Of a stretch of 34,256 nucleotides of DNA, positions 17,905 to 27,697 are shown in pieces; position 1 is the stretch's first letter; the number at the start of each line of letters is the position of its first letter. The notes beneath the pieces are model-generated. The model made no database searches and had not been told where the DNA came from. It was given only the letters and a program-made list of their open reading frames with translations. Both the position numbers and the translations under genes were made by a program. The DNA comes from Quinella sp. 1Q5 (GTDB lineage: Bacteria; Bacillota; Negativicutes; Selenomonadales; Selenomonadaceae), in the NCBI GenBank assembly GCA_014764605.1, contig JACXWG010000014.1:1-34256 (forward strand), read 5' to 3'.

Positions 17905-19077
17905 TCAACTTCGATACTCCGCGGCGAGCTTCTTGAACAGTGGCAAGGAACGTTCAATAGTCTCAGTCTTTATGCAGTAAGCCGCACGGAAATAACCAGG
18001 GGCTCCAAAGTCCGCGCCAGGCACCAACAGCAAGTCATATTTCTTAGCACGTTCGCAGAAAGCATAATCGTCCTCCTCCAGAGCCTTAGGGAACAGATAG
18101 AATGCACCTTGAGGTTTAACGCACTCGAAGCCCGCCGCAATCAGTCCGTCATAAAGGAGCTTGCCATTTAGTTCATAGGGCGTGATGTCGACCGACTTGC
18201 CCGCACACTTAGCAACGACTAACTGCCACAAGCTCGGCGCATTAACATGAGTTAGGACACGCGCCGCCCCTGCCACTGCTCCGAAAATCTTATCGAAGTC
18301 CGTAACCTCATCGGGCACGACGATATAGCCAATGCGCTCGCCGGGTAGGGAAAAGCTTTTGCTGTAGGAGTAGCAAACGAGAGTATTTTTGTAGAAATTC
18401 GGCACCCAAGGCACCGCGACGCCGTAAGCAAGTTCACGATAGGGTTCATCACATATCAAGAAGATGTTCCGCCCTTGAGCCTTAAGAATGTCTGTGAGCT
18501 TAGCAATCGTTTCTTTTGAGTAGACCGCGCCGCTAGGATTGTTCGGGGAATTGATGATAACTGCTTTGGTCTTTGGCGATAAAAGCCTTTGGAAGTCGTC
18601 GAAGTCAATCTGCCAATCAGCGGGGCGCGGCTTGACGACTTTAAGCGTTGCTCCGACCGACTCGACGAAAACTTTATATTCAGGGAAATACGGTGCAAAG
18701 GTTATGAACTCATCGCCAGGCTCCGCCAACGCCTTAAAGCAGATTGTAATCGCTGCCGCCGCTCCGCTCGTGACGAAAAGATTTTTCCCAGCGAAGTTCG
18801 TTCCGAAACGTGCGTTAATGCTCTGCGCTAATGTCTCGCGGACTTGTGGATTGCCGGGCGCGACGGTGTAGCCATGAACCTTTGCCGGCTCGTAAGTCTG
18901 CAGAATCTCAATCGCGGCGTCGCGTACAAAGTCGGGAGTCGGCACGTTGGGATTGCCTAGGCTGAAGTCGAAAATATTTTCCTCGCCGACTTGAGTCGCC
19001 CTCTTGCGTCCAAATTCAAATATTGTGCGGATTGTCGATTTCTTCGTCCCAAGCTCATACATCTTGCTTGATACCAT
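17905..19077 (-). CDS. PLP-dependent class I/II aminotransferase
   Basis: A 390-residue fold-type I aminotransferase. Motifs seen are FSLGNPNVPTPDFV, TSGAAAAITICFKAL, INSPNNPSGAVYSK (substrate carboxylate site), LICDEPYRELAYG (PLP aspartate and tyrosine) and CYSYSKSFSLPGERIGY with the Schiff-base lysine. The C-terminal half has KPQGAFYLFPKAL. It belongs to the aspartate-aminotransferase-like group common in anaerobic Firmicutes. The amino donor and substrate cannot be told from sequence. The ATG at 19077 is preceded by AAGGAG, which is the last two codons of the upstream glycosyltransferase gene. Its place after glycosyltransferases raises, but does not prove, a role in making an amino sugar or amino acid for the cell surface. 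Confidence 0.88.
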   Translation of the reverse strand: MVSSKMYELGTKKSTIRTIFEFGRKRATQVGEENIFDFSLGNPNVPTPDFVRDAAIEILQTYEPAKVHGYTVAPGNPQVRETLAQSINARFGTNFAGKNLFVTSGAAAAITICFKALAEPGDEFITFAPYFPEYKVFVESVGATLKVVKPRPADWQIDFDDFQRLLSPKTKAVIINSPNNPSGAVYSKETIAKLTDILKAQGRNIFLICDEPYRELAYGVAVPWVPNFYKNTLVCYSYSKSFSLPGERIGYIVVPDEVTDFDKIFGAVAGAARVLTHVNAPSLWQLVVAKCAGKSVDITPYELNGKLLYDGLIAAGFECVKPQGAFYLFPKALEEDDYAFCERAKKYDLLLVPGADFGAPGYFRAAYCIKTETIERSLPLFKKLAAEYRS

Positions 19078-19084
19078 TCAATAA

Positions 19085-20137
19085 TCACTCCTTAGCTTTT
19101 AACTTGTCCTCTAACTCGGCAATGCGCCGTTGCGCCCGTGACAATTCTTTTTGTTGCGCGTCAATCATGCTGAAGAAGAACGGCACCGCCGAAGAGCCAT
19201 CGAACTTACGATACAAAGCCTCATAAATGTCTTGCGTGTCAAGGCGCATCCTCTCTTCTGAACAACAGCCGAGGCAATAATTAAAATGAAGGCTCAACGC
19301 TTGACAATAATAAAGCGGATTCTGCTTAAGGATTGCCGTCTTCTTTAAGAGTTCGTCAAAAGCCTCAAGCCAAAGGACAAACGCCGAGACCCAGTGGGAA
19401 ACTTGTTCGGGCGGCGTGCGTTTCTTGTGCGAAACCGACTCGGCATTATGGCTCCGGTAGAAGTAAAGCGGGATGGGGAGCGTCAGCAATCTCTTTGCAT
19501 AGCAGTAAACGTTAATAACCCAGATGAAGTCGCCGCCAGAAATTATCGCCGGGAAGGTGATTGCGTTTTCGATAAGGAAGTCGCGCCTTATAAACTTCGT
19601 CCACGGATTAGGGAAATTTCCCCTAAACAAGAGCCGCTGAAGATTTTTATTCGGGTCATTGATTGTCAAAGTCGGCTCGTCACTTGCGTCTTTTTCTTTG
19701 GCAAGCGCATTCTCCAAATCCAACATTTGCATGAGTTCGCCGCTACCGTCGCGAGTGTAATAAGCGGAGGTATAAACCACCTCGGCTTGAGTTTGCGTCG
19801 CCGCCGTGTACAGAAGCTCCAACGCACGCTCAACAATGAAATCGTCGGCGTCCACAAAAAAAATATATTCACCGCACGAAAGATTAAATCCGATATTGCG
19901 TGGAACATAACCGCCGCCGCCAGAATTTGTTTGCGTCTTAGAAAGCTTGAGCCGCCCATTAAACTTCGGCATATAACCTTCGACGATAGCAACGCTGTCA
20001 TCTGTTGAGCAATCATCAACGACAATAAGTTCAAAATCTTGGAACGTCTGCCCTAAGAGACTATTGAGACAGTCGCCGATATATTTTCCCGCGTTGTACA
20101 TGGGGATAATCACTGAGACCGCCGGATTGTTTTTCAA
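19085..20137 (-). CDS. GT2-family glycosyltransferase, single module, TTG start
   Basis: A 350-residue inverting glycosyltransferase of GT-A fold. It starts VSVIIPMYNAGKYIGDCLNSLL, has LIVVDDCSTDDS, the acceptor/donor segment YVPRNIGFNLSCGEYIFFVDADD with an intact metal-binding DxD (D96-A-D98), and a helical C-terminal half ending in a coiled coil (QQKELSRAQRRIAELEDKLK). No transmembrane segment is seen, so it acts on the cytoplasmic face, presumably on a lipid-linked surface glycan. TTG 20137 follows AAGGAG, which is formed by the last codons of the upstream gene. It is clearly a paralogue of the modules in that 1534-residue neighbour and shares a 49-bp identical stretch with module 1. Confidence 0.88.
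   Translation of the reverse strand: MKNNPAVSVIIPMYNAGKYIGDCLNSLLGQTFQDFELIVVDDCSTDDSVAIVEGYMPKFNGRLKLSKTQTNSGGGGYVPRNIGFNLSCGEYIFFVDADDFIVERALELLYTAATQTQAEVVYTSAYYTRDGSGELMQMLDLENALAKEKDASDEPTLTINDPNKNLQRLLFRGNFPNPWTKFIRRDFLIENAITFPAIISGGDFIWVINVYCYAKRLLTLPIPLYFYRSHNAESVSHKKRTPPEQVSHWVSAFVLWLEAFDELLKKTAILKQNPLYYCQALSLHFNYCLGCCSEERMRLDTQDIYEALYRKFDGSSAVPFFFSMIDAQQKELSRAQRRIAELEDKLKAKE
19923..19971. repeat. 49-bp exact repeat, copy in single GT2 gene
   Basis: Identical base for base to 24520-24568. It encodes the KLSKTQTNSGG region of the GT2 module. Exact DNA identity stands out because the flanking sequence has diverged, which suggests recent duplication or gene conversion. Confidence 0.85.
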
Positions 20138-20141
20138 AGAA

Positions 20142-23100
20142 TCACTCCTTAGTTTTAAGCTGATTAATTTCCTTCTGCTGTGAAATTATCATGCTAAAAA
20201 GACAAGAGACTAAGTCAACATGTTCGCCCAAATACTCGCCGAAGTGTTCGCGCAAGAGATCATACAGCTTGAACGTCGACAAGTTATCGCTTTGCTTCAA
20301 GACGCGTCTAAGCTCCGTCTTTATAAAAAGATTTAGTAGGTCATAGCGGTAGTAAGGATTGTCTTTAAAGAAGCCGATGCTATCCATAAAGTCATTCATT
20401 TCTTTTAATCCGACAATCATTTGGCTCATCCATTTATGAACGTCGCTGGACTGTGTGTCGTGAGTTCGCTTAATGTAACAAGCATTCGGGATTCGCAAAA
20501 ACTTTTTAGAATATAAAAGAACTGCAAACGCCCAGCCAACATTGTTTGACCCGCTAGAAAAGTTTATGTTGTTCTCGATTAGCAAATGCCTCGACACCAA
20601 CCTTAGCCACGGCATCAACGCATAATTTTGCTTAAGGGCTTTATCGAAACGTGCTGTTAAGTCGTTCGTCTCAAGCGTAGGCTCATGGGTGTCGTCAACT
20701 TCGGGAGCAGTAGTCTCCAGCGTCAAGAAATTCTCGCAATAAACCGTATCCGCACCGAACTTTTTAGCAGCGTTGTACATCGTTTCCAATCCTGTCTGTG
20801 TAAGAGTATCATAGACGTCCATGAAGAAAACATATTCACCCTTGCAGAAGAATAAGCCCTTGTTGCGCGGCACGCCAGAGCCACTTGAATTGCTACTCGT
20901 CTTTGTGAGCTTGAGTCGCCCGCCGAACTTTGAGCTGTAACTATTGACGACGGCGACTGAATTATCGGTGGAGCAATCATCAACAACGATTACTTCAAAG
21001 GATTTAAGCGTTTGAGCAAGGAGACTATCCAAACACTCGCCGATATACTGTTCGCCATTATACAACGGGATAACGACAGACACATCAAAAGCTGACGGCT
21101 CCAGCATAAGCTCAACGGTCGAATTATCTGCTTTAGCATTCGGTGTTGACGGCTCAATCAAATGGCAGAAGGACTTAGTAAAGTCATCTGTCGCTTCGTT
21201 GAGTAATGTATCGTAAACTTCTTGTCTAACCGAGCTACTCAAAGTAAGAGAATCAAAGTAAGTCTTTGCCGCTTGATAACAAAGAGCGGAATTTTCTTTA
21301 AGGAACTCAACTTTGTTCACAATGTCCTTGAACGACTTAAACCACGCCACAAAGTCAGATGGGCTTGCTTTAGATTCTGAACGTTGACGCATAAAATAAA
21401 TCGACGTGGGCAGACGCAGGAATTTTTTTGCATTAGCACAAACAAGCAACGACCAAAGCTCCTCGCCGCCAATCACTTCAGGGAAGACAATTTTATTCTC
21501 AGTCAAAAATTCGTACCGAACAAATTTTGTCCACGGCTCACAATGCTGATTCTTCAAAAGCACGTCTTGCAAAAGTTTATCGGACGCATCAACGAGCAGA
21601 GCCCTTTTATCCTTGGCACCGCCCTTGTGTAACTCCTTGCTAATGCCATCTCTTTTTAGAGAACTCTCATTGGAACGGTTCATCAAACGATAACGTGAAG
21701 TGTAGACAACATCCGCTTTACTTTCTCTCGCTACCTTATAAAGCACTCCCAGCGCAGTTTTATCAATGAAATCATTAGCGTCCATAAAAAGAACATACTC
21801 ACCACACGCCAAGTTCAATCCGACATTTAGTAGCGCACAAACGTTGCCTAAATGAGTTTCCGTTTTAGTGAAGGTAAGTTGCTCATTAAACTTAGACACA
21901 TAGCCTTCAATAATTTTAACGCTTTTATCGGTGGAGCAGTCATCGACGACGATTACTTCAAAATTTTGGAAGGTCTGCGCAAGGAGACTGTCCAGACATT
22001 CGCCGATATATTTCTCCGCGTTGTACATAAAAACAATAACCGAGACTTTGCCTTTACGTTGCTTAATTTCCTTACCAAGGTCATTAAATGGTTTGAATTT
22101 GCGCGGCACCTGTTCTTCGGGAGATTGAACGGTCACTGTCTCTAACTGGGTTATGTCACTTCTGTGCGGGAACCACTTAACTTGTATCTTGAGTTCTTCT
22201 CCTTCTTTTACATCTCTTTTGTAACGATAAGGCTTGTCGTGACAAACAGAAATAGGTTTATCAAACAGCGTCTTTTCATTTATGGTCAAATTGGTGTAAT
22301 CAATCCAATAAGGAATGCGTTTGGAATTATCCTCTGGGCTACGTATATCCATTCCCCTAAGCCACATCCGAAATTGCCCGTCAACAGTAGCTTTCGCGAC
22401 GATTTCTAACTGCCCTTTATAAGATAAAACTTGGTAAATAATGCCGTTGTTAGTTGTGCGAGTAGGATTAAAAACTTCTGCCTCAGCGGCATCTATGGTA
22501 AAGATTTGAAAATCAGCATTTTTCGATTGAGGTCTCAATTCAAGGTCTATTCTTGCGGTGATAAAAGGTTTAAATTCCGGAGAGGGTGTTTTAGTTTCAA
22601 TTAACTTTTCGAAGTCTGAAAAAACATTAAAGAGGAATGCCATTAAATCCGTATTGTCGATATTGGCAAATTCTTTTCTTAAAGCTTCTTCGCGTTCGCC
22701 TGCTGGGATTTTGTCATAAATTATCCGGATATAATTATCCCAAACTTCGTGAAAGTAGGTGCTAAAGGCGAGTTGTTTGACTTTAGGATTTTTCTGGAAG
22801 AACTCGCGTTTATTCAAAAAATCATCTAGGTAATTAAAACCTACTTTTAACGCGCTCATGTATGTTTGTAGTTGCTGTAAAGAGTCGCGTTTTTTACGAT
22901 ACAAAGAGGTTTTATGAACGCGATAGTGATTAATTACATATGGCACGCGGACAAATCTTTTTGCGGTGTAAACTAAGCAACACGTCGCCAACATATCTTG
23001 AATTAATGTGTTCTGGAAACGAATATTATTTTCTATCAGATAATCGCGCCGAATCAGCTTATGCCACAAAGACCACAAAAACTTATGATCGAAACAATCC

Positions 23101-24746
23101 TGCACTCGTCTAGCCACGTCGAAAGGAACTAAAGTCGGTTTACTCACAAAGCCACCTTTTTGATAGCTCACGGGTTTAAGTTCCTTTCTGAATTCGACAT
23201 TGTTCCAGTTTTCTTCGGGTATCCAGTAAAATCTTTCACAAACGACGACATCGGCGTTAAAATCTTTGGCAACACTGTAAAGCTTTTCTAGAGCATCGGG
23301 CGTAATGGTGTCATCGTTGTCCAGTATGATTAGATATTTGCCACGAGACAAAGAAACACCTAAATTGCCTGGGTCGCCTGGACTACCCGTATTTTCTTCT
23401 GTCTTGGCAATTCTGAGTCGCCCATCGAATTTAGGTATGTAACTTTCAACGATGGCAACTGAATTATCGGTGGAACAATCATCAACAACGATAACCTCAA
23501 AATTTTTAAAGCTCTGAGCAAGGACACTGTCAAGACATTCGCCGATATATTTTTCTGCGTTATAAAGCGGAATAATCACCGAAATTGTCGGGGCGATTGT
23601 ATGAAATTCGAGAATATATGACATGAAATCTTTTAATCGGCTAATCTCCGTATCTTTCGTGATAACGTTCTTTTCAGATTGTTGAACAACGTCTTTGGCA
23701 TGTTTAAGGTATTGCTGAGTCTTATTTAAGGTTTGATTCTGATTGAATATTTGCGTGCAGAGAGAAGAAATTAAAACATCGTAATCGCCAAAATATTTTC
23801 CGTACGCTTTTTTTATTGCTTCGTAAACATCAACTGGGGTAAGTTGCCGTGCATTTCTAAAACTTGAGTTTAACTTACCTTGAAAATGCTTTTCTAAGAC
23901 GGCATAGCGTTGTTGCGGGTTCTCTTTAAAGAATTCGATTTGATTCATGAAGTTATCTAGCTCTTTTAGCCCTAACAAAACGGGATTAAGCCAAAAATTG
24001 AGCGCCTCTTGAGATGTTCTTACTGTACCTGTTATAGAATCTTCTCTCATGCGGCGGATATATATCATGTTTGGTACGCGCAACCATCTCTTAGCAAAGA
24101 AAACTAAGCCGTAAGTCCAAATATCGTCTTCGCTGGGTTTTATATGAGGGAAAACTATTTTATGCTCTTTAAGTAAGTCATGTCGAACGAATTTAAACAC
24201 TGCACCAGCCCAATATCTTTCATTCAATATTCCCTGCACGCGTTCGAATAAATCTTCGGATTCAAGAGTGGGCTTTTCGACATAAGGCGGCTTTTGAACT
24301 CTTCTTGTTGCAACATGAATATTTTCAATGAAGTCTTCGCCAACGCCCGTCGACATGTAGTATCTTTCGCAATAGACAACATCAGCGTCATATTCTTTGG
24401 CAAGAGTGTACATCTCTTCAAGGCCTGTTTTGGTAAGAGCATCATCCGAATCCATAAAGTAAATATACTTGCCACTAGCTAAAGGCAATCCTACATTTCG
24501 AGGAACAGCACACCCACCTGAATTTGTTTGCGTCTTAGAAAGCTTGAGCCGCCCATTAAACTTCGGCAGGTAGCCTTTGACGGTTTCAACTGAATTATCC
24601 GTCGAACAGTCATCAACGACGATTACTTCAAAGTCTTGGAACGTCTGCGCTAAGAGGCTGTCTAAGCACTCGCCGACATATTGTTCGGCATTGTACATCG
24701 GAATAATCACCGAAATTGTAGGATTAATCGACTGTTTGTCGTGCAT
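20142..24746 (-). CDS. Giant glycosyltransferase with four GT2 modules and a beta-rich insert
   Basis: A 1534-residue protein with four GT-A modules starting near residues 10, 387, 900 and 1221. Each has a version of VSVIIPxYNAEKYIGECLDSLLAQ and EVIVVDDCSTDNS. Between modules 2 and 3, about 722-875, lies a beta-rich domain (DFQIFTIDAAEAEVFNP ... QFRMWLRGMDIRS) of a kind I cannot name. The DxD metal motif is intact in module 1 (D99-S-D101) and module 2 (D476-N-D478) but altered in module 3 (DAND, 989-992) and module 4 (DVYD, 1310-1313), so the last two may be inactive or serve in binding. Each module has a helical tail of about 170-230 residues. No membrane helix is seen. The substrate is unknown; the context points to surface glycan assembly. 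ATG 24746 follows AAGGAG. Confidence 0.9.
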   Translation of the reverse strand: MHDKQSINPTISVIIPMYNAEQYVGECLDSLLAQTFQDFEVIVVDDCSTDNSVETVKGYLPKFNGRLKLSKTQTNSGGCAVPRNVGLPLASGKYIYFMDSDDALTKTGLEEMYTLAKEYDADVVYCERYYMSTGVGEDFIENIHVATRRVQKPPYVEKPTLESEDLFERVQGILNERYWAGAVFKFVRHDLLKEHKIVFPHIKPSEDDIWTYGLVFFAKRWLRVPNMIYIRRMREDSITGTVRTSQEALNFWLNPVLLGLKELDNFMNQIEFFKENPQQRYAVLEKHFQGKLNSSFRNARQLTPVDVYEAIKKAYGKYFGDYDVLISSLCTQIFNQNQTLNKTQQYLKHAKDVVQQSEKNVITKDTEISRLKDFMSYILEFHTIAPTISVIIPLYNAEKYIGECLDSVLAQSFKNFEVIVVDDCSTDNSVAIVESYIPKFDGRLRIAKTEENTGSPGDPGNLGVSLSRGKYLIILDNDDTITPDALEKLYSVAKDFNADVVVCERFYWIPEENWNNVEFRKELKPVSYQKGGFVSKPTLVPFDVARRVQDCFDHKFLWSLWHKLIRRDYLIENNIRFQNTLIQDMLATCCLVYTAKRFVRVPYVINHYRVHKTSLYRKKRDSLQQLQTYMSALKVGFNYLDDFLNKREFFQKNPKVKQLAFSTYFHEVWDNYIRIIYDKIPAGEREEALRKEFANIDNTDLMAFLFNVFSDFEKLIETKTPSPEFKPFITARIDLELRPQSKNADFQIFTIDAAEAEVFNPTRTTNNGIIYQVLSYKGQLEIVAKATVDGQFRMWLRGMDIRSPEDNSKRIPYWIDYTNLTINEKTLFDKPISVCHDKPYRYKRDVKEGEELKIQVKWFPHRSDITQLETVTVQSPEEQVPRKFKPFNDLGKEIKQRKGKVSVIVFMYNAEKYIGECLDSLLAQTFQNFEVIVVDDCSTDKSVKIIEGYVSKFNEQLTFTKTETHLGNVCALLNVGLNLACGEYVLFMDANDFIDKTALGVLYKVARESKADVVYTSRYRLMNRSNESSLKRDGISKELHKGGAKDKRALLVDASDKLLQDVLLKNQHCEPWTKFVRYEFLTENKIVFPEVIGGEELWSLLVCANAKKFLRLPTSIYFMRQRSESKASPSDFVAWFKSFKDIVNKVEFLKENSALCYQAAKTYFDSLTLSSSVRQEVYDTLLNEATDDFTKSFCHLIEPSTPNAKADNSTVELMLEPSAFDVSVVIPLYNGEQYIGECLDSLLAQTLKSFEVIVVDDCSTDNSVAVVNSYSSKFGGRLKLTKTSSNSSGSGVPRNKGLFFCKGEYVFFMDVYDTLTQTGLETMYNAAKKFGADTVYCENFLTLETTAPEVDDTHEPTLETNDLTARFDKALKQNYALMPWLRLVSRHLLIENNINFSSGSNNVGWAFAVLLYSKKFLRIPNACYIKRTHDTQSSDVHKWMSQMIVGLKEMNDFMDSIGFFKDNPYYRYDLLNLFIKTELRRVLKQSDNLSTFKLYDLLREHFGEYLGEHVDLVSCLFSMIISQQKEINQLKTKE
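24520..24568. repeat. 49-bp exact repeat, copy in module 1 of the giant GT2 gene
   Basis: The second copy of the sequence at 19923-19971, about 4.6 kb apart and in the same orientation. Recombination between the two would fuse the two genes and delete modules, so this pair is a plausible instability point. Confidence 0.85.
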
Positions 24747-24750
24747 AAAA

Positions 24751-26622
24751 TCACTCCTTATCTTCTGTAAGTTTGTGCTGACCCAACATCGTCGTCAAGG
24801 TATCGCGATTGAAACGATACGTGGCGGAGGAAAAATCTTGCCCCGCGTCATAGCGATTTGACGGCGCATTTATTAGCCCGCAAAAAGTATCATAGAACAT
24901 ATCGTTTGTAAAATATTTCGCGTGATTGTTTTCAAGGGTCGTCGTTAGGTCGGGGAAGGTTGCTTCATACTCTGGCGACAGGTAGATAAACATTGGCACG
25001 CGCAACATTTCAAAGCGGAACACATCGGGATTGTGGGAAATCTCCAAGTCCTCGCCGTGGTCAGAGAAATAAATCATCGCCTGCAAGTTCAAATTCTGCG
25101 CGGCATAGTCGAAAATCTTCGACAGAACATAATCCGTGTAGAGAATCGAATTTGCGTAACTCGGCGCGGCAAGCATCATTCCCGTACCGTTGGCAGTCAC
25201 CCACTTTTTAAATCGGCGCGGATAGCGGCTGTTGTAGTAGATGTGACTACCCATTAAGTGAAAGACGATGAAATTATTCTCGTTCGGGTCGATATTTTCA
25301 AAGAACCGTAAAAGCACCTCGTCTTCAAGCTCGCTGAAGTCAAAGGTATCGTCAGTCCACTCGGAAACGTCAGCAGTTTTAGCGACGAGAGTAATCGCGC
25401 TGTCAAACTCGCCATAGCGTCCTTGATTGCTGAACCAGTAAGTTTTATATCCCGCCTTCCTTGCCACGTCGACGATTGAAACTGACTCGAAAAATTCTTT
25501 GTCGTTGTACTGGCTCTGCTCGGTCAAAGCTCGTTGCAGGACCGGTACTGTCTGCGTCCACGAAGCGTAAACATTTTTGAAAATAATAAACTTTCCGGCG
25601 GCGGGCGTCAAGCGCGGAGTGTTATCGGGCGTGGCTTCATAGTCGGGATTAATCTTCGCGTCGTCGGGGAGGGCGGGCGTCGGCAAAAGTTTGTTGAGTT
25701 TGCTTTCAAGCCACGGCGTGTCGTCGAACGGGAAGGCGGGATTATAAGCGTGCATGTAGTCGCGGCTCGCGCTTTCGCCGATAACAAAAATCACAGTGCC
25801 CTTGGCTTTGGCGGCTAAGGTTTGTTCGGCGTCAATGGTCAAGTCGGCTAAGCGGGCGGCGCGTCCTTGAGAGTAAAGCTGAGTTTGGGCGGCGTAGTCG
25901 GTAACCGTCTTCCACAGCCCAGCCATCGAGGTTTGCGGCGCATAGTGAATCAATGCGGCGAAACTACAAATCAGCGCGATGGCGGCGGCGGCAGTCCGTT
26001 CCGTGTCCAATGTCGGCAAGCGTCGTCCAAAATTAACGTGGGCTTTGAACGCCAGCCGCAGGAGCAAGCCTATGACCGCGAAGATTATCAGCAGGTTAGG
26101 CAAGCCAATCATAGCGCGGAGGAATTCGCCAGCCTCGTGCCAATTAGTCAGGTAGATTGCCATGAGCGACGCCGGTGACAGGCAATGCCACGTCAAGCAG
26201 TAGTAAACTAATTCGACAAGCGGAATCAGACAGAAGAATAAGTTCAGCAGGCTCATCGACGCGGCGGCTAATCTCGACTTTGCAAGCAAGACTTCCGCGC
26301 TCGTGAGCAAAATAAAAATCGCCGTGCCGACAGCGAAATCGTAATAGATTAAAGACATGAACCATTGCCGCTGATAAGTCCACGTGTACAAGAGCGGGAA
26401 CGTTATCAGCCACGCCAGCCCCGTTAAGAGGTTCGGCAACATTGGGCGGGAAAAAATTTCTGCGCGGGCGGCGAACTGAATCAACCACAGCAGAGCAATC
26501 GTCGCGGGTATCGGCGGTAAAAAATATTGCGGCGCGGCGGGCTGTCCTATGTCAATGTAAAAGACTTCGCCGAGGTAGTAATACAATGCCGCGTAGGCTA
26601 GAAATTTCTTTGCGTCAGACAT
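24751..26622 (-). CDS. Membrane sulfatase/phosphoethanolamine-transferase-like enzyme
   Basis: A 623-residue alkaline-phosphatase-superfamily membrane enzyme. The N-terminal third has about five or six hydrophobic segments (near 10-25, 40-53, 63-82, 92-112, 124-143, 172-192, and another near 212-228). The periplasmic catalytic part starts with FVIGESASRDYM (279-290), where E282 and S284 are the expected metal ligand and nucleophile, and includes FHLMGSH and YFSDHGEDL with further metal ligands. This arrangement fits EptA-like transferases that add phosphoethanolamine to lipid A or surface glycans; lipoteichoic-acid-synthase-like enzymes are the alternative. ATG 26622 overlaps csaB by 8 bp, and an in-frame TTG at 26634 is less likely. 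It ends 4 bp before the giant GT gene. Confidence 0.85.
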   Translation of the reverse strand: MSDAKKFLAYAALYYYLGEVFYIDIGQPAAPQYFLPPIPATIALLWLIQFAARAEIFSRPMLPNLLTGLAWLITFPLLYTWTYQRQWFMSLIYYDFAVGTAIFILLTSAEVLLAKSRLAAASMSLLNLFFCLIPLVELVYYCLTWHCLSPASLMAIYLTNWHEAGEFLRAMIGLPNLLIIFAVIGLLLRLAFKAHVNFGRRLPTLDTERTAAAAIALICSFAALIHYAPQTSMAGLWKTVTDYAAQTQLYSQGRAARLADLTIDAEQTLAAKAKGTVIFVIGESASRDYMHAYNPAFPFDDTPWLESKLNKLLPTPALPDDAKINPDYEATPDNTPRLTPAAGKFIIFKNVYASWTQTVPVLQRALTEQSQYNDKEFFESVSIVDVARKAGYKTYWFSNQGRYGEFDSAITLVAKTADVSEWTDDTFDFSELEDEVLLRFFENIDPNENNFIVFHLMGSHIYYNSRYPRRFKKWVTANGTGMMLAAPSYANSILYTDYVLSKIFDYAAQNLNLQAMIYFSDHGEDLEISHNPDVFRFEMLRVPMFIYLSPEYEATFPDLTTTLENNHAKYFTNDMFYDTFCGLINAPSNRYDAGQDFSSATYRFNRDTLTTMLGQHKLTEDKE

Positions 26623-27697
26623 GGGCGAGTTCAATGGCGAGCTTAGCGTTCTTGCGAGCCAGGTCGCCGAGTTCCTTTAGTAAAGTATCGTCGCAAGCGT
26701 TCTTGTGTTCGGAAAGCTTCTGCAAGGTCGCGTCGAAGATTTTATCCGCCGTCACGTCCGAGAGATTGCCGAGCGGTTTTTCGCCGACGGAATCAAGGAA
26801 ACGTTCAATCTTCGGGTCGTAGGAGATGCCGAGCATGGGAACGTTCATCACGCCCGCGAATATCAGCGCGTGGAGCCGAACGCCAATTAGAACGTCCATA
26901 CAGCCGACGAGGCTTAAAATTTCCTGCGTGGTGAATTCTTCGTCTAGGACGGCGGGCGGGCTTTTCATAAGGGTGGCGATTGATTGGGCGGCGCGTATGT
27001 CTTCGGGGAACTTCATCGGGATAAAGACAATCTTAGCGTCAAGCGTTTCTGTTATGCGGTCGAGGGCGGCGGCTAGTTCGCGCTGAAATTTTTCCCAATC
27101 AAGCCAATGACGAATCGCCACGCCGATAAATCGTCCGCTGGGATTGTCCACGTGCCGCGATAAGATTTCCCTGCCAACGTCAAGCGGCACGGGTTTAATC
27201 GCTAAGACAGGGTCGGCGGTGCAATAAATCTTCGGACGCGTTATCTTGAGTCGGGAAAGTTCTTCCAGCGAGCCGCGGTCACGAACGGTGATTAGGTCGA
27301 CGCGGTTTAGGATAAAGTTCGTGAGCTTGTGAGCAAGCACGCCGCGAATCGGTCCGATGCCTTGGGCGTAAAGCATGACACGCCGCCCGAACGCTAGCGC
27401 AAAAAAAATTATTGTCAGGTAGTAGTAGAGGCTCCGCCCGCTCGTCACGTTCTGCAACAGTGAGCCGCCGCCCGATATGAGCAAGTCCGCCGCCCGAATT
27501 CTCTTTATGATTGTCCAAAGGTCCAGCCACGGCACCGCGTCGACGTTATGGCGTCGCTTAGTGTATTCGGGGTTGAGGGAGATGACAGTTACGCTTAAGT
27601 CTTCGACACCTTCGCGCAAGACTTCAAGCATCGCCGAGAGCATCGCCTCATCGCCGCCGTTTTTCGAGCCGTAATAGCCGGATACTACGATTTTCAT
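26615..27697 (-). CDS. csaB: Polysaccharide pyruvyl transferase CsaB
   Basis: A 360-residue GT-B-like pyruvyl transferase. Features are VVSGYYGSKNGGDEAMLSAM at the start, LLISGGGSLLQNVTSGRSLYYY, LYAQGIGPI, VRDRGSLEEL and the C-terminal VGVRLHALIFAGVMNVP-type segment (here IGVRLHALIFA) with GISYDPKI. CsaB adds ketal-linked pyruvate to cell-wall polysaccharide. In Bacillus-type bacteria this is the anchor for SLH-domain proteins, and csaB is also found in Negativicutes. It is the first gene of the seven-gene envelope run, with CTAAGGAG before the ATG. The 60 bp upstream contain short imperfect CTAAGGA/TAGGAAT repeats and no clear promoter. Confidence 0.93.
   Translation of the reverse strand: MKIVVSGYYGSKNGGDEAMLSAMLEVLREGVEDLSVTVISLNPEYTKRRHNVDAVPWLDLWTIIKRIRAADLLISGGGSLLQNVTSGRSLYYYLTIIFFALAFGRRVMLYAQGIGPIRGVLAHKLTNFILNRVDLITVRDRGSLEELSRLKITRPKIYCTADPVLAIKPVPLDVGREILSRHVDNPSGRFIGVAIRHWLDWEKFQRELAAALDRITETLDAKIVFIPMKFPEDIRAAQSIATLMKSPPAVLDEEFTTQEILSLVGCMDVLIGVRLHALIFAGVMNVPMLGISYDPKIERFLDSVGEKPLGNLSDVTADKIFDATLQKLSEHKNACDDTLLKELGDLARKNAKLAIELAHV

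Follow-up and report, generated by a model that had tools for sequence, protein, structure and literature searches.

A four-module GT2 protein of Quinella with an apparent pseudo-glycosyltransferase pair in a variable glycan locus

We identified in Quinella sp. 1Q5 a glycosyltransferase (GT) whose single chain carries four GT2 modules. The last two, M3 and M4, appear to form a conserved pseudo-glycosyltransferase pair that has lost the Asp at the metal position and the one acting as catalytic base, together with a piece of an active-site loop. We put the probability at about 0.6 that this is a GT of a variable surface glycan in which two catalytic modules, M1 and M2, are combined with the pair as an acceptor-binding or scaffold unit. 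As a rule, GT2 genes of bacteria are annotated as coding for active enzymes, and here two adjacent GT2 domains have been retained in three species, with two different partners, although they lack key catalytic residues. The window, meaning the whole stretch of 34,256 nucleotides analyzed, comes from contig C125 of a draft genome in 132 contigs (2.1 Mb, 83% complete), and the features discussed below are as follows.

17905-19077, minus strand, aminotransferase class I/II, a recurrent 3' flank of the GT2 cassette
19085-20137, minus strand, M5, downstream single GT2, motifs intact
20142-24746, minus strand, four-module GT2 ORF, 1534 aa
20145-21116, minus strand, M4 (aa 1211-1534), FMDVYD at 20808-20825, SNNVGW at 20532-20549
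21117-22067, minus strand, M3 (aa 894-1210), FMDAND at 21771-21788, GGEELW at 21453-21470
22077-22103, minus strand, putative fusion junction, from ...EEQVPRKFKPF to NDLGKEIKQ...
22152-22586, minus strand, beta domain (aa ~721-865), between the module pairs
22608-23618, minus strand, M2 (aa 377-713), GT2, ILDNDD at 23310-23327, base IQD, DxD and base intact
23619-24746, minus strand, M1 (aa 1-376), GT2, FMDSDD at 24441-24458, base motif SEDD, motifs intact
24751-26634, minus strand, sulfatase-fold phosphoethanolamine-transferase-like protein, CptA-like, below NCBIfam cut-offs, a recurrent 5' flank
26615-27697, minus strand, CsaB-type polysaccharide pyruvyl transferase

Architecture of the four-module protein

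The gene lies on the minus strand at the coordinates given in a first-pass annotation of this DNA, and a Shine-Dalgarno-like AAGGAG stands 5' of its ATG, as it does 5' of M5, the aminotransferase, and csaB. The four modules proposed there correspond to four stretches matching the Pfam family PF00535, scoring 123 (M1), 129 (M2), 103 (M3), and 104 (M4) bits, each above the curated cut-off of 23.3 bits, and the DxD motifs likewise read as described: FMDSDD in M1, ILDNDD in M2, FMDAND in M3, and FMDVYD in M4. The same annotation held that few GT2 proteins have four modules, which needs some correction. Multi-module GT2s are not so rare in the genus, with at least two modules in 26 of 124 surveyed GT2 ORFs, from 11 genomes (12 with two, 11 with three, and three with four). 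The four-module GT2 is unusual, though not unique, and the form described here is known from one draft genome only.

Our survey took in 167 GT2 modules of the loci fetched for the genus, keeping modules with an HMM start below 40 and more than 150 positions and dropping duplicate ORFs; 163 of these have an aligned base position, and the 163-module set excludes the other four. Because the loci were chosen by similarity to the four-module protein or for long open frames, the frequencies given here are not unbiased. Residues are numbered after Staphylococcus aureus TarS, as D91-x-D93-D94, base D178, R75, E177, and R206/H210/S212 (PMC5156392). As described for TarS, D93 holds Mn bidentately through both carboxylate oxygens, activity is abolished in the mutants D91A, D93A, D94A, R75A, and E177A and severely reduced in D178N (PMC5156392).

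From their intact DxD and base residues, M1 and M2 are likely to be active GT2 domains. M1 has DSDD, the base Asp, the Arg of the PRN motif, and the Glu preceding the base. M2 has DNDD, including the metal-position Asp, and its base Asp in a QD context, with Gly in place of the PRN Arg (R75) and Gln in place of E177. It is thus without two residues whose Ala mutants inactivated TarS, so its activity, too, is only predicted. Gly or Ser occupies the PRN Arg site in 14 of the 161 modules other than M3 and M4 (M2 itself, six others with Gly, and seven with Ser), and the Gly together with the QD context is common to a subfamily of the genus. With DxD and base Asp also kept, we discarded the idea that M2 is altered as well.

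Loss of active-site residues in M3 and M4

In M3, the metal-position Asp is replaced by Asn (DAND) and the base Asp by Glu, the glycine loop is rebuilt, and the substrate loop carries a deletion; M4 reads DVYD, has Asn in place of the base Asp, and also has a substrate-loop deletion. A counterpart of the pair is found in two congeneric species (genomes G004 and G021) at 72% identity to that of the window, with DAQD and a Glu base in M3 and with DAYD or DATD and an Asn base in M4. Across the three species, position D93 drifts (N/Q/Q in M3, Y/Y/T in M4) while D91 and D94 are fixed, and the base position is Glu in all three M3 orthologues and Asn in all three M4 orthologues. The case for altered modules is stronger than the first-pass annotation had made it, as the base Asp and part of the active-site loop are missing too.

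In the 163-module set, a non-acidic D93 together with a non-Asp base occurs in six of six M3/M4 modules and in none of the 157 others; in the first module of the L085 protein, the metal and base positions are each occupied by a conservative Glu. Among the 161 modules that are not M3 or M4, D93 is Asp in 155, Glu in five, and Asn in one; at the base, 155 have Asp and four have a gap. Loss of Asp at D93 is concentrated in multi-module proteins (11/68 modules, against 1/95 in single-module proteins), with a Fisher p of 0.0003 that is too small, since orthologues are included and are not independent. We also rejected the notion that the altered pair is common. Only G004 and G021 are close (at least 64%) among the matches listed for 66 genus genomes, and they alone reach that level among the best listed for 189 family genomes, the 66 included (E up to 1e-60, up to six candidates scored in each genome). 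Two further two-module proteins, from G005 and G023 and outside the survey counts, have motifs that look intact by eye.

Several other GT2s of the genus depart from the usual motifs. In three three-module proteins from three species, L081:4100-7402 (the same genome as the window, contig C130), L091:4897-8202 (G021), and L115:4980-8285 (G057), the first module has NAED or KAED and a shortened substrate loop with the base Asp kept, and we regard it as a candidate second type of altered module. Two closely related single GT2s from two species (L125:6645-7700 and L139:4309-5364) have DSDG instead of DxDD. A single GT2 with a beta domain in the genome of the window itself (L079:6288-7805, contig C71) has DNDN and a changed DDCSTD motif, adjoins a two-module paralogue of M1-M2-beta, and is possibly decaying.

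Structure prediction had been suggested for each module. The model of M3-M4 (pLDDT 84.7, pTM 0.56) keeps a GT-A-like fold, the pTM leaving the orientation of the domains unsure, and the beta domain was modeled as well. Both modules match PF00535 with this fold and lack the metal-position and catalytic-base Asp. Motif loss with the fold kept, combined with the purifying selection described below, is what marks them as putative pseudo-GTs.

Not every motif has been lost. D91, D94, and the nucleobase-side DDCSTD motif are retained in all six modules of the three species, and PRN in M4, which leaves room for nucleotide binding or metal-independent activity. M3 and M4 might then still be active through an altered mechanism, either without metal or with migrated catalytic residues and a Glu base in M3. 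GT-A families of this kind are on record: GT14 and prokaryotic GT6 are described as metal-independent after loss of the DxD, and a Glu serves as the base in GT14 and stands in for the Asp in GT43 (PMC7185993). An NxD GT2 module is also reported from the two-module Klebsiella pneumoniae O7 polymerase, with the metal-position Asp kept there (PMC11231755). In M3 and M4, however, metal position, base, and loop are all lost in both modules, and it is D93 that drifts while D91 and D94 stay fixed, so we consider such activity unlikely.

Origin and maintenance of the pair

A phylogeny of the modules had also been proposed, and in a quick tree covering 163 of the 167, the M3 trio and the M4 trio stand apart, at two separate positions among intact modules (SH-aLRT 100 each). 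M4 falls inside a 13-row clade (support 99) whose remaining rows are intact. M3, like M5, falls inside a 54-row clade (support 100), where the first modules of proteins from G051 and G063 lie closest to it (support 94). Those proteins contain a tandem pair homologous to M3-M4 that has DADD or DIDD and the base Asp in both modules, and these intact pairs make it likely that the ancestor was an active tandem in which both sites were lost later. The site loss in M3-M4 looks derived.

Pairwise dN/dS (Nei-Gojobori, with several dS values near or above 1) is 0.18-0.21 for M3 and 0.11-0.18 for M4, compared with 0.19 for intact M5, 0.09 for C1 (the intact first module of the three-module G004/G021 protein), and 0.11-0.31 for M1 types. 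Values of 0.11-0.21 indicate purifying selection on M3-M4. Between G004 and G021, the pseudo-modules are 85-86% identical with a dN/dS of 0.18, and C1 is 95% identical with 0.09; the pair therefore changes faster than the neighboring intact module in these genomes, yet it is clearly constrained.

This faster change within one polypeptide, along with the missing catalytic residues, is what would be expected if M3-M4 were a decaying remnant of old transferase genes, retained as harmless. That reading has to contend with a frame that stays open across ~640-650 codons in three species at the dN/dS values above, at a C-terminal position where stops would be tolerable, and with retention of the pair alongside two different fusion partners, and we hold it to be quite improbable. 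Among the columns invariant in the two intact pairs, we saw no signal of faster loss at active-site positions (18/46 kept, against 175/424 of the others, p=0.88). Conservation by sub-region of M3-M4 showed no focus on one acceptor-side part, which leaves acceptor binding and scaffolding unseparated.

Fusion to M1-M2-beta

In G004 and G021, the M3-M4 pair follows one intact GT2 in a three-module protein, and in the window it is joined in frame after M1-M2-beta. Flanking alignments place the junction at ~22077-22103. Its upstream side resembles the beta linker of a two-module (GT-GT-beta) protein of G021, and its downstream side resembles the M3 linker of the three-module protein of the same genome; the two halves of the ORF look like an in-frame fusion. 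The genome of the window (83% complete) gave no close match to the intact first module of the G021 three-module protein, the best reaching 52%. In G004, the counterpart of the G021 two-module beta protein (L078:2431-5699) is split into two overlapping frames, one with two GT2 modules and the other with two beta copies.

An assembly chimera of two adjacent genes would also place these halves side by side. The genome is a draft in 132 contigs, no junction-spanning match appeared among the matches listed for the other 65 genus genomes (up to eight candidates scored in each), and G+C at third codon positions shifts across the junction (0.37-0.40 vs 0.44-0.53). Against a misjoin, the junction sequence is in frame and unique in the genome, the next best match being 25 bases at 88%, and the parental types, judged from the sequences of other species, overlap there by a few bases only. 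The pair and its alterations also occur independently in G004 and G021. We regard an assembly error as very unlikely.

A variable GT2 cassette

The order from 5' to 3' is the CsaB-type gene, the CptA-like gene, the four-module GT2, M5, and the aminotransferase. Among the fetched loci, those of 13 other genomes have a homologue of the phosphoethanolamine-transferase-like gene (75-96%) next to GT2 genes and those of nine have a homologue of the aminotransferase gene there (86-96%); both ends of the array lie on a single contig in three of them, G013, G017, and G020. Between these recurrent flanks (17905-26634 in the window), the GT2 array varies across the genus in gene number and fusion state, and one cassette (L127) also contains a GT8. 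An M5 orthologue sits after the M3-M4 gene in G004, and among the fetched loci only G004 and G021 have a CsaB gene adjoining the cassette. The modules of the GT2 ORF have a G+C of 0.39-0.44, against 0.49 for the window. The product of the cassette is likely a surface oligosaccharide, perhaps of the lipopolysaccharide-core type.

The beta-rich domain that the first-pass annotation saw between the module pairs is indeed present, and its AF2 model (pLDDT 83) consists mainly of strands. It is a recurrent GT2-associated domain: the fetched loci include 33 distinct ORFs that carry one to seven copies of it, 25 of these ORFs in the genus and eight in loci titled Methanobrevibacter or Clostridiales. 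No Pfam family scored over its cut-off, a search of PDB sequences gave no match, and Foldseek against the PDB returned no match at E<=0.001, with weak CBM35 rows only. Two GT2 proteins of ~2100-2200 aa, L077:5878-12171 and L085:4251-10835, have three and four GT2 modules with seven and five tandem or split copies of the domain.

Proposed role of the pair

The first-pass annotation pictured a possible assembly-line enzyme for a defined short glycan, with the last modules as acceptor-binding or scaffold units. A pair that looks non-catalytic and is conserved fits the second part of this picture, and the role itself is one we infer; the assembly line with its defined glycan is conjecture. M1 and M2 would be catalytic GT2s, each adding one sugar. 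M3 and M4 would descend from a catalytic tandem GT2 pair that lost the metal Asp, the base Asp, and part of a donor-closing loop, and an in-frame deletion or a recombination event within the GT array may have brought them behind M1-M2-beta. The loss of both active sites, coupled with retention by selection in three species, means that they probably hold or guide substrate, persisting as a non-catalytic unit that may bind or position partner enzymes or the acceptor as it grows. We rate the three alternatives discussed above, namely activity without metal, neutral decay, and an assembly error, as less likely than such binding.

The occurrence of the pair behind one intact GT2 in two related species means that it behaves as a portable C-terminal accessory. 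We tentatively extend the acceptor-binding reading, at somewhat less than even odds, to a tandem GT2 pair turned into a portable pseudo-GT adaptor that moves from one active GT2 partner to another within a hypervariable glycan locus, where it would dock or order acceptors in a one-chain assembly line. An intact pair, a dead pair, and two fusion contexts form a natural set in which the role of pseudo-GTs in glycan assembly is directly testable, and they caution that one sugar per GT domain is not a safe inference.

Comparison with known systems

The closest structural parallels to M3-M4 are the K4 chondroitin polymerase KfoC of Escherichia coli (2z86/2z87) and the heparosan synthase 2 of Pasteurella multocida (8vh8), which likewise have two GT2 domains per chain. 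In a Foldseek search with the M3-M4 model, both span the two modules, the K4 entries taking the top six rows and TarS and TarP coming next. The relative domain orientation of these enzymes is not reproduced in the model (rmsd ~22, pTM 0.56). Both modules of KfoC and of heparosan synthase 2 are catalytic, whereas M3-M4 lacks the catalytic residues.

The bifunctional GT of Streptococcus parasanguinis belongs to another protein family (DUF1792 domain), with both activities present. In the synthesis of serine-rich repeat glycoprotein, this one protein is described as adding two different sugars in turn (PMC7661464). O-antigen polymerases such as K. pneumoniae O7 ORF6, which has two GT2 modules, and the WbdA type also carry several GT modules per protein; their modules are active as described, with no dead tandem pair in that description (PMC11231755). 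S. aureus TarS and TarP and Listeria monocytogenes RmlT share the GT2 fold and motif layout seen here and differ from the four-module protein in having only one GT2 module, whose active site is intact. TarS is described as ending in tandem carbohydrate-binding-like trimerization domains (PMC5156392), and our comparison of the beta domain with solved structures detected no homology.

A literature search of titles and abstract beginnings turned up no description of two dead GT2 modules in tandem. Among GT-A pseudoenzymes, a precedent of the scaffold type is COSMC (C1GALT1C1), a GT-A homologue described as having lost both the DxD and the xED motifs and as acting as a scaffold or chaperone (PMC7185993). 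COSMC is a separate human protein of family GT31, while M3-M4 is a tandem GT2 pair fused to bacterial GT2s that are likely active.
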